From: Aequorivita echinoideorum
GTDB lineage: Bacteria; Bacteroidota; Bacteroidia; Flavobacteriales; Flavobacteriaceae
DNA length: 64,000 nucleotides
Reading direction: 5' to 3'
NCBI RefSeq assembly: GCF_018476645.1
Contig: NZ_JAHCTB010000001.1
Span: forward strand, 372,001-436,000
How positions within the stretch are numbered: position 1 is the first letter of the stretch; the number at the start of each line of letters is the position of its first letter. The notes beneath the pieces are model-generated. The model was not told where the DNA came from. It did not search any database and was given only the letters and a program-made list of their open reading frames with translations. This document shows positions 33,440 to 54,910 of this stretch, piece after piece. The position numbers were made by a program, and so were the translations under genes.

Positions 33440-33450
33440 ATTGGTTAACA

Positions 33451-33491
33451 GTTGATAGTTGTTGGTCAATAGAATGCCAACAACTATCAAC
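33451..33491 (+). repeat. Perfect 15-bp hairpin between atpD and atpC
   Basis: GTTGATAGTTGTTGG (33451-33465) and its exact complement CCAACAACTATCAAC (33477-33491) enclose an 11-nt loop. No T run follows, so it should not terminate transcription. It occupies most of the 73-nt gap between the two genes. Confidence 0.85.
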
Positions 33492-33512
33492 TAACAACAA
33501 ACAACTAAAAAT

Positions 33513-41995: not shown

Positions 41996-42160
41996 AATTT
42001 ATTCTTTAACGTTCTATACTTATATGTTTAATTGTTTCATTTCCATTCATGGCTTGAAGGCCCGCAATATATTTAAAATTATCTTAAAGTTTTAGGTTGA
42101 ATTTTAAGAATTCTTGTAATTCACTAAACCCTAAACGTTTGATGATTATAATTTAACATC
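41996..42160. other. AT-rich intergenic stretch
   Basis: Between the lipoprotein gene start and the minisatellite I see no gene, RNA or terminator; it probably holds the lipoprotein promoter. Confidence 0.4.
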
Positions 42161-42391
42161 TTCAATGCTCCAACTCCCATTTTCATCGCTCCAACTTCCA
42201 ATTTCAATACACCAACTTCCATTTTCAAGGCTCCAACTCCTATTTTCAATGCTCCAACTCCCATTTTCAACGCTCCAACTTCCATTTTCAATGCTCCAAC
42301 TCCCATTTTCATCGCTCCAACTTCCATTTTCAATGCTCCAACTCCCATTTTCAACGCTCCAACTCCCAATTTCAATGCTCCAACTTCCATT
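42161..42391. repeat. 21-bp minisatellite, 11 copies
   Basis: Eleven imperfect tandem units of exactly 21 bp cover the whole interval. Each unit begins TTCA, has the core GCTCCAACT and ends CC(C/A)AT. Units alternate: odd units mostly carry TTCAATGC with CTCCCATT, even ones TTCAACGC or TTCATCGC with CTTCCATT, giving a 42-bp higher-order period, clearest at units 5-10. Because 21 is a multiple of three, three frames stay open, giving heptad peptides such as MEVGALK on the minus strand. These are not considered genes. No gene is seen in the rest of the gap up to 42487. Confidence 0.95.
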
Positions 42392-50896: not shown

Positions 50897-50903
50897 GCAC
50901 AAA

Positions 50904-50928
50904 AAATCCCGATCTTAAATCGGGATTT
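50904..50928. terminator. Bidirectional terminator between hybrid kinase and sdhB
   Basis: AAATCCCGAT (50904-50913) pairs exactly with ATCGGGATTT (50919-50928) with a 5-nt loop. It lies between convergent genes. The minus strand has a longer T run (6) than the plus strand (3), so it is the better terminator for sdhB. Confidence 0.85.
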
Positions 50929-50951
50929 CGCATATTAATATGGATTTTGTT

Positions 50952-51698
50952 TTATCCTTTTATACTCGCTCCTAAATATTCACGATTCATTCTTGCAATA
51001 TTTTCCAATGAAATTCCTTTTGGGCACTCAATCTCGCAAGCGCCTGTATTGCTACAATTTCCGAACCCTTCCTTATCCATCTGTGCAACCATATTGAGAA
51101 CGCGTTCTGTTGCTTCGGTTTTTCCCTGTGGCAATAAAGCGAATTGGCTCACCTTTGCTGAAGTAAACAGCATCGCACTCGCATTTTTACAGGCAGCTAC
51201 ACACGCACCGCAACCAATACATGTAGCCGCGTTGAAAGATTCGTCAGCATCGTGCTTATTTACAGGGATTGCATTGGCATCAATAGTGTTTCCAGAAGTA
51301 TTCACCGAAATAAATCCACCCGCCTGCTGAATTCTATCAAACGAACTTCTATCCACTACCAAATCCTTAATTACTGGAAAGGCCGTAGCGCGGAATGGCT
51401 CAATTACAATAGTATCTCCATCCTTGAACATACGCATATGTAGTTGGCACGTAGTAATCAACCTATCTGGGCCGTGCGGCTCACCATTTATTTGTAGTGA
51501 GCAGCTTCCACAAATTCCCTCACGGCAGTCGTGATCAAAAACTACGGGCTCCTCACCTTTGTTTATTAAACCTTCGTTCAATACGTCAAGCATCTCAAGA
51601 AAAGACATATCGCCCTCAATTCCATCGATGGGATATGTTTTTAATTCTCCTTTAGTATTTGCGTTTTTTTGGCGCCAGATTTTTAAAGTAAGTTTCAT
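50952..51698 (-). CDS. sdhB: Succinate dehydrogenase/fumarate reductase iron-sulfur subunit
   Basis: This 248-residue subunit has the [2Fe-2S] cluster cysteines in [12 protein letters not shown] and a later TTC. The [4Fe-4S] and [3Fe-4S] cysteines are in [14 protein letters not shown] and CEIECPKGI. It passes electrons from SdhA to the membrane subunit SdhC in the TCA cycle and respiratory chain. It is the third sdh gene but is separated from sdhA by the inserted four-helix-bundle element. Its ATG lies only 7 bp from the element end. Confidence 0.97.
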
Positions 51699-51705
51699 AT
51701 TATAA

Positions 51706-51728
51706 AGGAATTAGAAATTAGCGAAAAG
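51706..51728 (+). repeat. Left inverted repeat of the IVS-like element
   Basis: This 23-bp sequence starts AGGAATTAGAAATTAGCG and matches the reverse complement of 52110-52132 at 19 of 23 positions. Its outer end lies 7 bp from the sdhB start codon. Confidence 0.7.
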
Positions 51729-51738
51729 CAAAGAGGGA

Positions 51739-52101
51739 TTATTCTCTTTCATTCAAGCTTTTAATCAGTGCATTCAACATTTTGCTAATTTCAATTATTA
51801 AACTTTCAATATTTTTAGTATTTGTAAAAAAATTCAGCTCTGCTGAAATAATTATTTGAGTTTCCAATTCAAACAAAGAACCTCTTGCCGTTCTAAGAAA
51901 TAGAATATAACTTTTTTTTGACATCCTTCCCCACCCTTCTGCAATATTTGATGGGACTGAAACAACCGAACGTCTCATTTGGGAAACCAATCCGTATTTT
52001 TCATCCTCTGGAAAAGAATTGGTGAGCAAGTAAATTTCCTTAACAAGCTTTATGGCTTTTTGCCAAACAATTAATTCTTTATAGGATTTTACAGAGCCCA
52101 T
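51739..52101 (-). CDS. Four-helix bundle protein (23S rRNA intervening-sequence protein family)
   Basis: This 120-residue helical protein belongs to the S23/IVP family: YKELIVWQKAIKLVKEIYLL, the hallmark MRRSVVSVPSNIAEGWGR, and the long fourth helix. Members form pentameric rings of four-helix bundles and are often encoded within 23S rRNA intervening sequences, or elsewhere in Bacteroidetes genomes. A function is not established; RNA or DNA binding through a basic surface is proposed. It starts 8 nt inside the right inverted repeat and ends 10 nt before the left one. All helices are intact, so it is under some selection or recently arrived. Confidence 0.92.
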   Translation of the reverse strand: MGSVKSYKELIVWQKAIKLVKEIYLLTNSFPEDEKYGLVSQMRRSVVSVPSNIAEGWGRMSKKSYILFLRTARGSLFELETQIIISAELNFFTNTKNIESLIIEISKMLNALIKSLNERE

Positions 52102-52109
52102 TTTATTGA

Positions 52110-52132
52110 CTATTCGCTATTCTCTTATTCCT
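52110..52132 (-). repeat. Right inverted repeat of the IVS-like element
   Basis: Read on the minus strand it starts AGGAATAAGAGAATAGCG. Its outer two bases overlap the TAG stop codon of sdhA (52133-52131). Confidence 0.7.
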
Positions 52133-54134
52133 ATTTATAGGAACGTGACTTCACTTCAATATTCTCATAATCCAATTCTTCTTTATGCAGCACCTCGTTT
52201 CCGGGATCTCCGGTGTATTCCCAAGCGGCTACGTACATAAAGTTCTCATCATCGCGCAATGCCTCTCCTTCCTCGGTTTGGTATTCCTCACGAAAATGGC
52301 CACCACAACTCTCATTTCTGTGCAGCGCGTCTTTTGCAAACAATTCGCCCAATTCAAGGAAATCTGCAACACGGGTTGCTTTTTCTAGCTCGCTGTTCAT
52401 TTCGTCCATCCCGCCAGGTACTTTCACATCTTTCCAGAATTCCTCCCGAAGCGCTCTTATTTCAGACATTGCAGACTTCAAATCCTCTGCATTGCGCGCC
52501 ATTCCGCATTTGTCCCACATAATTTTTCCGAGCTTTTTATGGAAATAATCTACGGAATGCGTGCCGTTGTTGTTAACCAATTTATTTAGAAGTTCACGAA
52601 CGCGGCTTTCAGCTTCGTCAAATTCTTTTGTTTCAGTCGAAATTTTTCCTGTTTTAATATCTTTTGAAAGGTAATCACCAATGGTGTACGGCAATACAAA
52701 ATAACCATCCGCAAGACCTTGCATCAACGCCGAAGCACCCAAGCGATTGGCTCCGTGGTCGCTGAAATTAGCTTCACCCGTAACGTAGCAGCCTGGAATC
52801 GTGGATTGCAAATTATAATCTACCCATACACCACCCATTGTATAATGTACCGCGGGATAAATCATCATGGGAGTTTCGTATGGATTTTCATCTACAATTT
52901 TCTCATACATCTGGAAAAGGTTTCCGTATTTGCTTTCAATAACCTGCGTTCCTAATTTTTTAATTTCGGCATCACTTGGATTGTGGTTTCCGTGGATGGC
53001 AGCCTGTTCTTTTCCGTAGCGCTCAATCGCCGAAGCAAAATCCAAATAAACAGCTTCACCTGTTTTATTTACACCATAGCCGGCATCACATCTTTCTTTT
53101 GCGGCACGCGAAGCAACGTCCCGTGGCACCAAGTTTCCAAAAGATGGATATCTTCGTTCCAAATAGTAATCTCTTTCTTCAGCTGAAAGATCAGTGGGTT
53201 TCTTTTTTCCGTTTCTGATTGCTTCCGCATCCTCCTTTTTCTTCGGAACCCAAATTCTTCCATCATTTCGAAGTGATTCAGACATCAAAGTAAGTTTACT
53301 TTGGTGATCTCCGGAAACAGGAATACACGTTGGGTGAATCTGCGTGTAACACGGATTTGCGAAATACGCCCCTCTTTTATGAATTTTCCAAGAAGCGGTT
53401 ACGTTACTTCCCATAGCATTTGTTGAAAGGAAGAAAACATTTCCATAACCACCCGAGGCAATAACCACGGCGTGTGCGGAATGTCTTTCAATTTTACCTG
53501 TTACCAAATCACGCGCTATAATTCCTCTAGCCTTTCCATCCACGATCACCAAATCCAGCATTTCGTGACGGTTGTAAGGTGTTATTTTTCCACGGTTTAT
53601 TTGGCGATTCATGGCAGCATAAGCCCCTAAAAGCAACTGCTGACCAGTTTGGCCCTTCGCGTAAAAAGTTCTTGAAACCAACACCCCTCCAAAAGAGCGG
53701 TTGTCCAGCATTCCACCGTATTCACGCGCAAAGGGAACACCTTGGGCAACGCATTGGTCAATAATATTTGCCGAAACCTCAGCAAGACGATACACGTTTG
53801 CTTCGCGAGAGCGATAATCACCTCCTTTTATGGTATCATAGAATAATCTATAGGTTGAGTCGCCATCGCCTTGATAATTCTTTGCGGCATTGATACCTCC
53901 CTGTGCAGCAATAGAGTGTGCGCGGCGAGGTGAATCTTGATAGCAAAATGTTTTTACGTTGTAACCAAGCTCGGCCAGGGTTGCGGCGGCACTTCCCCCT
54001 GCAAGACCCGTGCCCACCATAATAACATCAATGTTACGTTTGTTGGCGGGGTTAACGAGGTTTATATCGTTTTTATGTTTTGTCCACTTATCGGCTAAGG
54101 GTCCTTTGGGTATTTTGGAATCTAATATCGACAT
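52131..54134 (-). CDS. sdhA: Succinate dehydrogenase/fumarate reductase flavoprotein subunit
   Basis: This 667-residue flavoprotein oxidises succinate. The FAD dinucleotide fold is [38 protein letters not shown] contains the loop near the flavin, and active-site residues are in [17 protein letters not shown] and the late [14 protein letters not shown] and [17 protein letters not shown]. Length and order (sdhC-sdhA-sdhB) are of the Bacteroidetes type B complex. It is 11 bp downstream of sdhC. Confidence 0.98.
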
Positions 54135-54145
54135 CGCTTTTTCTT

Positions 54146-54808
54146 TTAGTGGATTTGATTAAAATGAAGGTATAGTGCAATAAATATAAAACCAAGCGGA
54201 ATAGCTATTGCATAAACTTGGGTAAAAGCCCTTAATCCCTTAGAATATTTGTTGTTCCATCCCATACTTTGAAAGGAAGAGGAAAAACCATGCCAAAGGT
54301 GAAGCATCAACAATACAAATGAAACACAGTAAATACCCGTACGAACAGGGCTTCTAAATTTCTCAACCAATTCTGGATAATATCTCGTGGGATCCTCTGG
54401 GTTCGATTCTAAATATTTATACGTTATTTCGTGAAACCAGAAATCGTAAAAGTGAAGTCCCAAAAATGCTAAAACAACCAATCCGGTTACTATCATATAC
54501 CGAGATGCCCAAGTTGAATTTCTATCGCCTTTATAGGATTTGTATTTTATTTTCCGCGCGCTATTATTTTTAATTTCAAGAAAAATTCCCATACAAAAGT
54601 GAAAAATAACGCCAAAAATCAAGATGGGCTGAAGCACACCTTGAACAAGTACATTTGTACCCATAAAATGTGACCAGCTATTGAAGGTATCCGGATTTAT
54701 GACCGATATAACATTGATGGTAAAATGCTGGGCAAGAAAGACCACAAGAAACAAGCCAGAAAGTGCCATAGCTACTTTTCGGGCAATTGAAGAGGATAAT
54801 ATTCCCAT
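54146..54808 (-). CDS. sdhC: Succinate dehydrogenase cytochrome b subunit
   Basis: This 220-residue membrane anchor has five hydrophobic helices. Haem-ligand candidates are the His residues in [26 protein letters not shown] and [12 protein letters not shown]. It resembles the single-subunit, two-haem anchor (type B) of Bacteroidetes and Bacillus. It passes electrons to menaquinone. It is the first gene of the operon and is preceded by a good promoter. Confidence 0.95.
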
Positions 54809-54836
54809 TATTATTTTATTTCAAGAATTGAGAATG

Positions 54837-54867
54837 CAAAAATACACTACGAGACATTGAATGCCAA
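54837..54867 (-). promoter_or_regulatory. sdhCAB promoter
   Basis: On the minus strand TTG (54867-54865), a 20-nt spacer and TATTTTTG (54844-54837) match the Bacteroidetes consensus; the sdhC ATG follows 28 nt later. Confidence 0.75.
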
Positions 54868-54910
54868 AAAAATAGCATTATTACTACACTATTTAGACTT
54901 ATTAAAGCAA

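Follow-up and report, generated by a model that had tools for sequence, protein, structure and literature searches.

Why should an operon as central as sdh carry, exactly between two of its genes, a small reading frame framed by inverted repeats, in the manner of the intervening sequences (IVSs) of 23S rRNA? In the window, by which we mean the whole 64,000-nt stretch of Aequorivita echinoideorum DNA that was analyzed, the upstream host gene sdhA (52131..54134; NF005749, 1190 bits) and the downstream host gene sdhB (50952..51698; NF005746, 429.5 bits) both lie on the minus strand, and the gap between them is taken up by an IVP/S23 four-helix-bundle ORF of 120 aa (51739..52101, minus strand; pI 9.4; matched by PF05635, TIGR02436 and PDB 2gsc) with a 23-nt arm on either side. 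The 5′ (sense-left) arm (52110..52132, minus strand) takes in the final two bases of the stop codon of sdhA (52131-52133); the 3′ (sense-right) arm (51706..51728, minus strand) ends 7 nt short of the sdhB start; and the two arms, one of them read as its reverse complement, agree at 19 of 23 positions. ORF and arms together make a unit of about 430 nt. The initial annotation of this DNA took it for a mobile, IVS-like unit, proposed that its arms fold into a stem in the sdh mRNA, and thought its presence in a core operon unusual. The geometry that it described, including the overlap with the sdhA stop codon and the 7-nt distance to sdhB, agrees with the coordinates; its further claims fare unequally, as discussed below.

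The arms are not a product of chance: with flanks of 45, 60 and 200 nt, the two sides of the window IVP pair with scores of 18, 20 and 21, as compared to dinucleotide-shuffle means of 8.2, 8.9 and 9.8, and these scores are equalled by 1 of 2000 shuffles at 45 nt and by 0 of 2000 at both 60 and 200 nt; moreover, with 200-nt flanks this ORF ranks top (21.0) among the 49 reading frames of 100 aa or more in the window, the next best of the other 48 reaching 16.5. The window arms are arrays of heptamers, a feature that the initial annotation does not mention; to the eye, it is clearest in a congener (genome G006), whose unit also sits at sdhA|sdhB and encodes an IVP 87% identical to that of the window.

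A common protein under purifying selection

The window IVP scores 131.3 bits against PF05635 (curated cut-off, 33.8) and 126.4 bits against TIGR02436 (cut-off, 24), placing it in both families, and matches the solved Xanthomonas protein, PDB 2gsc, with an E value of 2.1e-23. IVP/S23 genes are common and unexplained; the NCBI name of TIGR02436 is simply “four helix bundle protein.” We know of no transposase or nuclease site in PF05635, and of no HUH or DDE catalytic site in an IVP. The 2gsc protein has been described, to go by a title cited in PMC10053308, as an assembly of five four-helix bundles. IVPs are mostly basic (median pI 8.55, 10th percentile 6.25; 9.40 in the window).

The A. echinoideorum genome contains 21 PF05635 matches, four of them with an in-frame TAA; among the matches listed, the copy closest to the sdh IVP is 46% identical to it. 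Each of the 28 genomes of the genus that were searched, this one included, has at least four matches to the window protein, and a search of 14 well-known control genomes for PF05635 returned none. Six PF05635 matches lie inside 14 kb at G000:C20:278468-292117 (loci L072 and L078), where the scored ones are found between co-directional genes.

Among 48 disjoint pairs of IVPs from the same locus, 45 of them usable, the median dN/dS is 0.077 and the maximum 0.31; for the units of the window and of G006, dN is 0.076 and dS 0.63. The IVP is under purifying selection, and from the low dN/dS it follows that the protein is used. Used for what? Selection at a fixed site is also compatible with a function in the host, and to this extent it counts against a transposon.

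Arms are heptamer arrays that follow the protein

To learn what is common to such units, we pooled 171 distinct IVP reading frames, from only some of the copies in the match lists, and kept the 140 rows with at least 95 aa and at least 200 nt of flank on both sides. These represent 139 distinct genes, 130 from the genus and 9 from other genera; one locus (L158) appears twice, and its duplicate is still within the autocorrelation, arm-end, within/cross-arm and lineage-pair counts. Since this genus-centred set includes orthologues, it was reduced to 62 units or 54 lineages for some tests. When each upstream flank is compared with the reverse-complemented downstream flank of the same gene, the median score is 19.5, as opposed to 10.5 for swapped partners; the score lies above the 95th percentile of partner-swapped flanks for 105 of the 139 genes and below it for 34. 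Among the 62 non-redundant units, arms are retained in 49.

The arms are mostly degenerate arrays of a 7-nt, in some cases an 8-nt, repeat. Their autocorrelation reaches about 0.52 at a lag of 7 and 0.48-0.49 at a lag of 14, where shuffles give about 0.316; the best period is 7 in 74 of 106, 8 in 22, 9 in 3 and 6 in 1. A periodic array is present in 96 of the 124 flanks of the 62 units (period 7 in 72, period 8 in 18), and the median array of period 7 is 32 nt long. The same architecture extends over many phyla: in a named set with one genome per species, for which the 80 top-ranking loci were taken from at least 585 relatives, 76 loci could be scored (four were dropped for short flanks or N), 55 of which have arms, with a lag-7 autocorrelation of 0.474. 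Arms are found in 28/37 loci of Bacteroidota and near relatives (a label that here covers one Ignavibacteriae and one Rhodothermia record), 6/6 of Planctomycetota, 5/6 of Acidobacteriota, 5/7 of Clostridia, 5/9 of CPR and 6/11 of others. Rfam detected no rRNA in the 20 of these 80 loci that were searched, all of them outside Bacteroidota.

Do the arms belong to the site or to the protein? Arm heptamers track the IVP lineage, not the locus. For pairs of units that have no homologous flank, arm similarity is 0.50 where the likeness of the IVPs reaches 70% or more (47 pairs) and 0.48 where it is 60-70% (27), and is 0.20 at 50-60% (330), 0.19 at 40-50% (1610) and 0.178 below 40% or with no hit (3263); part of these pairs are neighboring tandem units, so that not all of them stand for long-range moves. 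When both flanks are homologous, the similarity is 0.64 where IVP likeness is 70% or more (113 pairs) and 0.192 where it is below 40% (42). The idea that arms are a property of the site was therefore rejected: unrelated IVPs at one junction have unrelated arms.

Rapid concerted evolution of the two arms of a unit is not apparent among close relatives: likeness within a unit exceeds likeness across genomes in only 7 of 98 same-locus pairs with IVPs at least 80% identical, arguing that copying between arms, if it takes place, is slow, and in 25 of 30 pairs at 60-80%, where concerted change does become apparent. Among sdhA|sdhB units of several genera that score at least 14 (9/13), the median is 18.5 within and 10.0 across units.

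Operon gaps are the usual home

Is a core operon an odd place to find an IVP unit, as was initially supposed? On the contrary, gaps between co-directional genes are where these units usually live: in the genus-centred set, both neighbors share the orientation of the IVP in 129 of 135 cases, the upstream neighbor alone does so in five, and both run against it in one (the 135 are distinct IVP genes flanked on each side by a reading frame of 80 aa or more, 130/136 with the duplicate; neighbors are the longest reading frames rather than annotated genes). The outer end of the arm lies at a median of −2 nt from the end of the upstream gene (n = 103) and +6 nt from the start of the downstream one (n = 98). 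The hosts themselves, sdh, atp and mur, are unrelated to each other, and the A. echinoideorum genome has further IVP units at atpA|atpG and mraY|murD.

In the named set, where neighbors are defined in the same way and are least safe in G+C-rich genomes, both are co-oriented with the IVP in 58 of the 73 loci that have two neighbors: in 36/37 from Bacteroidota and near relatives, but only in 22/36 from elsewhere, the other 14 comprising six between divergent genes, five with the upstream neighbor alone co-directional, and three with both neighbors against. The orientation bias suggests that expression of the IVP needs read-through from the host operon; the looser orientation outside Bacteroidota implies that this would not be a general rule. 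In Flavobacterium columnare, a gene for a four helix bundle protein is listed, in a table of PMC5524665, between the guanylate kinase and nicotinate-nucleotide adenylyltransferase genes of two strains, under phage elements; this gene could represent a further IVP unit lodged in an operon gap.

Empty, filled and ORF-less junctions

If these units come and go, relatives should differ at the same junction. The comparison of sdhA|sdhB junctions that the initial annotation had called for reveals just that: of 27 genomes of the genus, 8 are empty, with a gap of 3-5 nt, and 12 contain IVP units or remnants of four lineages (11 detected by profile; the interrupted copy of G005, which the profile misses, was placed in lineage c by eye). 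The remaining ones have a 71-nt hairpin (one genome), hairpins of 89-90 nt and a different type (four), a 152-nt insert (one) and a scar-like gap of 26 nt (one). Among 28 genomes of other genera, picked from 118 outside the genus because their sdhB is closest, 14 have gaps of 1-25 nt, 11 have inserts of 53-75 nt and 3 have IVP units. Relatives are thus not uniformly filled, and the same kind of arms recurs at other loci, tracking the IVP lineage from one to the next; the description of the sdh insert as an IVS-like unit, an ORF with inverted arms, is supported by both, and neither of the outcomes that the initial annotation named as refuting it was observed. Empty sites, together with terminal inverted repeats tied to the element’s own protein, are what is expected of a DNA transposon. 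By eye, no target-site duplication is evident when the empty and filled sdh junctions of the genus are compared. As for the 89-90-nt sdhA|sdhB hairpin of G007, G012, G020 and G024 (loci L057, L052, L040 and L061), by eye it is not heptameric, and its 39-nt end recurs with at most three mismatches in seven more genomes; a paralogous sdh pair in G024 is separated by 7 nt.

Two ATP synthase junctions contribute hairpins that lack the ORF. In the window, the atpD|atpC gap (33440..33512, plus strand; neighbors named by TIGR01039 and, below cut-off, by epsilon-subunit models) holds an ORF-less heptamer hairpin of the same class, its 25-nt arms alike at 21 positions; the left arm scores 24 against one IVP unit of the same genome (C11:116102), at most 14 against the other 20 units, and at most 16 in 500 letter shuffles. 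At atpA|atpG (atp and mur genes were named by NCBIfam models), 27 genomes divide into 10 with TATTGAG hairpins, 9 with CACAGAG-type hairpins and 8 with IVP units, two of which, including that of the window genome, are interrupted. The TATTGAG heptamer is found in flanks of IVP units in nine genomes, which include 8 of the 10 with an atpA|atpG hairpin, a count uncorrected for kinship; a further hit, in G026, is an sdh unit with octamer arms. The TATTGAG hairpin is not a high-copy MITE, its exact pattern occurring at no more than two places per genome in 28 genomes. At mraY|murD, 27 genomes were scored (G014 is missing): 15 are empty, 7 intermediate, and 5 have IVP units or remnants; here, a gap of 19 nt denotes an empty junction because the gap runs up to a conserved murD motif, and the 26 nt of G016 are the same junction aligned further in.

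Derivation of the CACAGAG hairpins from IVP units found no support, since 0 of 140 IVP rows have two or more such heptamers in a flank. GxxExxY genes (PF13366, PD-(D/E)XK) do carry CACAGAG heptamers in their flanks, and in this genus they often lie inside inverted CACAGAG-type arrays with a spacing of 8-9 nt (L390, L392, L410, L412 and others). Their flanks score above 16.5 in 18 of 28 cases and show no lag-7 peak; only 7 of 28 exceed the swapped 95th percentile, because many have one arm sequence in common. With three mismatches allowed, as many as 24 matches per genome are obtained for a 26-nt CACAGAG pattern. Elsewhere in the window, 42157-42391 is a tandem array with a 21/42-bp unit, about 11 copies of 21 bp.

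Residents or travelers?

Do empty and filled junctions record movement or merely loss? Units could be long-resident alleles, spread at fixed junctions through natural transformation or homologous recombination and removed again by deletion, in which case the protein would be no mobility factor and the units would have hardly moved for a long time. The sdh locus itself has much of this character: IVP lineages b, c and d of this junction are mutually closest (52-61% identical to one another, 44-51% to IVPs of other loci in this set); among the best 80 of at least 585 named relatives, the top seven (57-66% identical to the window IVP) are all found at sdhA|sdhB, in other genera, and sdhA and sdhB adjoin the IVP in 12 loci. 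Remnants and scars are also frequent (by eye in G002, G005, G008, G016 and G025, in addition to the four interrupted matches among the 21 of the window genome). A rough three-gene tree of the genus gives 18 changes of state at sdhA|sdhB, 8 of them when only presence or absence of the IVP is counted; these counts are rough, since good support is limited to 9 of 24 inner branches and the observed states show no more clustering than after shuffling (18 changes vs. a mean of 17.3). Jumping may have shaped the sdh junction less than did long residence, combined with loss and local exchange. As an account of the units at large, however, residence is unlikely: 74 pairs with IVPs at least 60% alike and with alike arms have non-homologous flanks, some being tandem neighbors, and the atpD|atpC gap has an ORF-less hairpin of one IVP lineage. 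These similar units at non-homologous loci, together with that hairpin, indicate that some movement between loci has occurred. The sdh unit may be mobile, as first proposed, but this is an inference: no recent second copy, target duplication or intermediate was seen.

Complementarity in RNA or in DNA?

If the arms pair, in which nucleic acid does pairing matter? In 23S rRNA, IVS arms form a stem that RNase III cuts, and the initial annotation extended this logic to the sdh transcript, whose cleavage would separate the sdhA and sdhB messages. For the 23S IVS of Coxiella, PMC4990558 describes a terminal stem of 28 bp and cleavage by RNase III in vitro. In the window unit, both the minimum-energy and the centroid RNA folds pair the arms around the ORF, and the nearly invariant sense orientation between two host genes (129/135) would suit an element that acts in mRNA. 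Yet this fold has a z-score of only −1.72 and is matched in stability by 6 of 100 shuffles; Rfam has no match at E 0.1 or better in 50900-54900; and the mismatches between arms show no excess of G-U over A-C on the sense strand. RNA helices tolerate G-U, hence a stem kept as RNA is expected to have more sense G-U than A-C mismatches, an expectation whose sensitivity was argued rather than calibrated on a known RNA helix: the counts are 88 vs. 90 in the reduced genus-centred set (62 units; p = 0.94), 167 vs. 189 in the full set and 114 vs. 100 in the named set (p = 0.37). Processing of sdh mRNA by RNase III is thus left with a possible fold and is, in our judgment, unlikely. With G-U and A-C mismatches equally frequent, complementarity looks to have been made and kept at the level of DNA, RNA pairing being a by-product.

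Another reading places the benefit with the host: the IVP and its arms could form a regulatory or insulating cassette that adjusts how the downstream cistron is translated or how stable it is. The arms would supply stop codons in several frames, as repeats of 7 or 8, which are not multiples of 3, would do. The low dN/dS at fixed sites (0.077) and the orientation bias are both consistent with such a role, and sense-strand stop triplets are indeed more numerous in the left arm in 33 units of the named set and fewer in 12 (10 ties, p = 0.0025). However, in the lineage-reduced genus-centred set the difference (22 vs. 14, 7 ties, p = 0.24) is not significant, so a need for stop codons in three frames as the cause of the 7-nt period is kept as a lead only; furthermore, 8 of 27 genomes of the genus have no insert at sdhA|sdhB, and the host genes (sdh, atp and mur) are unrelated. 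We regard a host-serving cassette as rather unlikely.

A proposed compact transposon-like element

Our preferred explanation, to which we give about an even chance (roughly 0.5), is that the heptad-armed IVP unit is a compact transposon-like element, akin to the IVSs of 23S rRNA and expressed by read-through. The unit consists of a degenerate array of a 7-nt, sometimes 8-nt, repeat, the IVP ORF, and the same array inverted; it lodges in the space from one gene's stop codon to the start codon of its neighbor, at least in Flavobacteriales almost always oriented with its co-directional hosts, and would draw its expression from their operon. The IVP, usually a basic four-helix bundle, would recognize its own arms as DNA, be it duplex, hairpin or single strand, and would take part in making, copying or moving the unit, much as a transposon protein acts on its terminal repeats; the strand-breaking enzyme may be a host factor. 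ORF-less hairpins would be deletion derivatives of IVP units. An IVP oligomer may sit well on arrays of about 32 nt; five subunits at 7 nt each would make an attractive fit, though for now this is numerology.

A broader version is more tentative, and we hold it to be possible but somewhat less than probable: the IVP genes of bacteria at large would be the autonomous members of a class of transposable elements so far undescribed. An IVP oligomer would bind lineage-specific heptamers, DNA hairpin copying would keep the two arrays alike, ORF-less hairpins such as that at atpD|atpC would be non-autonomous derivatives, and the IVSs of rRNA genes would be the visible tip of the class.

Relation to known systems

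How new is this arrangement? The closest known system is the 23S rRNA IVS, which shares with the window unit a PF05635 protein, terminal inverted repeats around its ORF, and the size class (428 nt in Coxiella, about 430 nt here); the Coxiella IVS, as described in part of PMC4990558, also has tandem heptamers upstream of its ORF, and it is these heptamers and the terminal stem that link rRNA IVSs to the operon-gap units. The two differ in their host, an rRNA helix for the IVS and the mRNA gap between sdhA and sdhB for the window unit, which has inverted repeats around an IVP ORF but is inserted in neither a 23S nor a 16S rRNA helix. They also differ in the fate of the protein, reductive evolution being reported for the Coxiella ORF (PMC4990558, in the part consulted) and strong purifying selection acting on operon-gap IVPs, and in the arms, which lack an RNA-strand bias in operon-gap units. 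The same source cites, in that part, earlier proposals that IVSs are remnants of transposition or of mobile elements.

The Avd protein of diversity-generating retroelements is a related four-helix bundle, but the window IVP falls below both curated cut-offs (PF22296, 29.4 bits vs. 40; NF033474, 31 bits vs. an equivalog cut-off of 80), and its neighbors are sdhA and sdhB. In REP/RAYT and MITE systems, hairpin repeats in gene gaps have a small protein gene as a candidate partner and shorter derivatives without the gene. IVP units share with them the gap hairpins, the candidate partner gene and the short ORF-less forms; they differ in that their arms are period-7 arrays that vary by lineage. Heptamer arrays, TAACTGA and others, have been reported from gene gaps of Beggiatoaceae, some cyanobacteria and five Bacteroidetes (MacGregor, 2015; PMC4679880), those of the Beggiatoa genome mostly directly ahead of start codons; in the parts of that paper that describe them, these arrays are direct repeats without a partner gene, and its main text, as available to us, contains none of the terms “intervening,” “S23” and “four helix.” In the open-access literature searched, we recognized no earlier account that joins IVP genes with heptamer arms in operon gaps.

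What operon gaps may hold

The IVP cassettes of operon gaps appear to be a transposon-like element that has so far been little described, related to the inserts of rRNA genes and present in many bacteria. If an IVP and its lineage-specific heptamer array are indeed the two parts of one element, then a protein family of unknown function would acquire a testable substrate, rRNA intervening sequences would gain a possible origin, and the heptamer repeats of Bacteroidetes and other phyla may gain a partner gene. The gaps of core operons such as sdh, atp and mur would, in that case, have been emptied and re-filled over the course of evolution.
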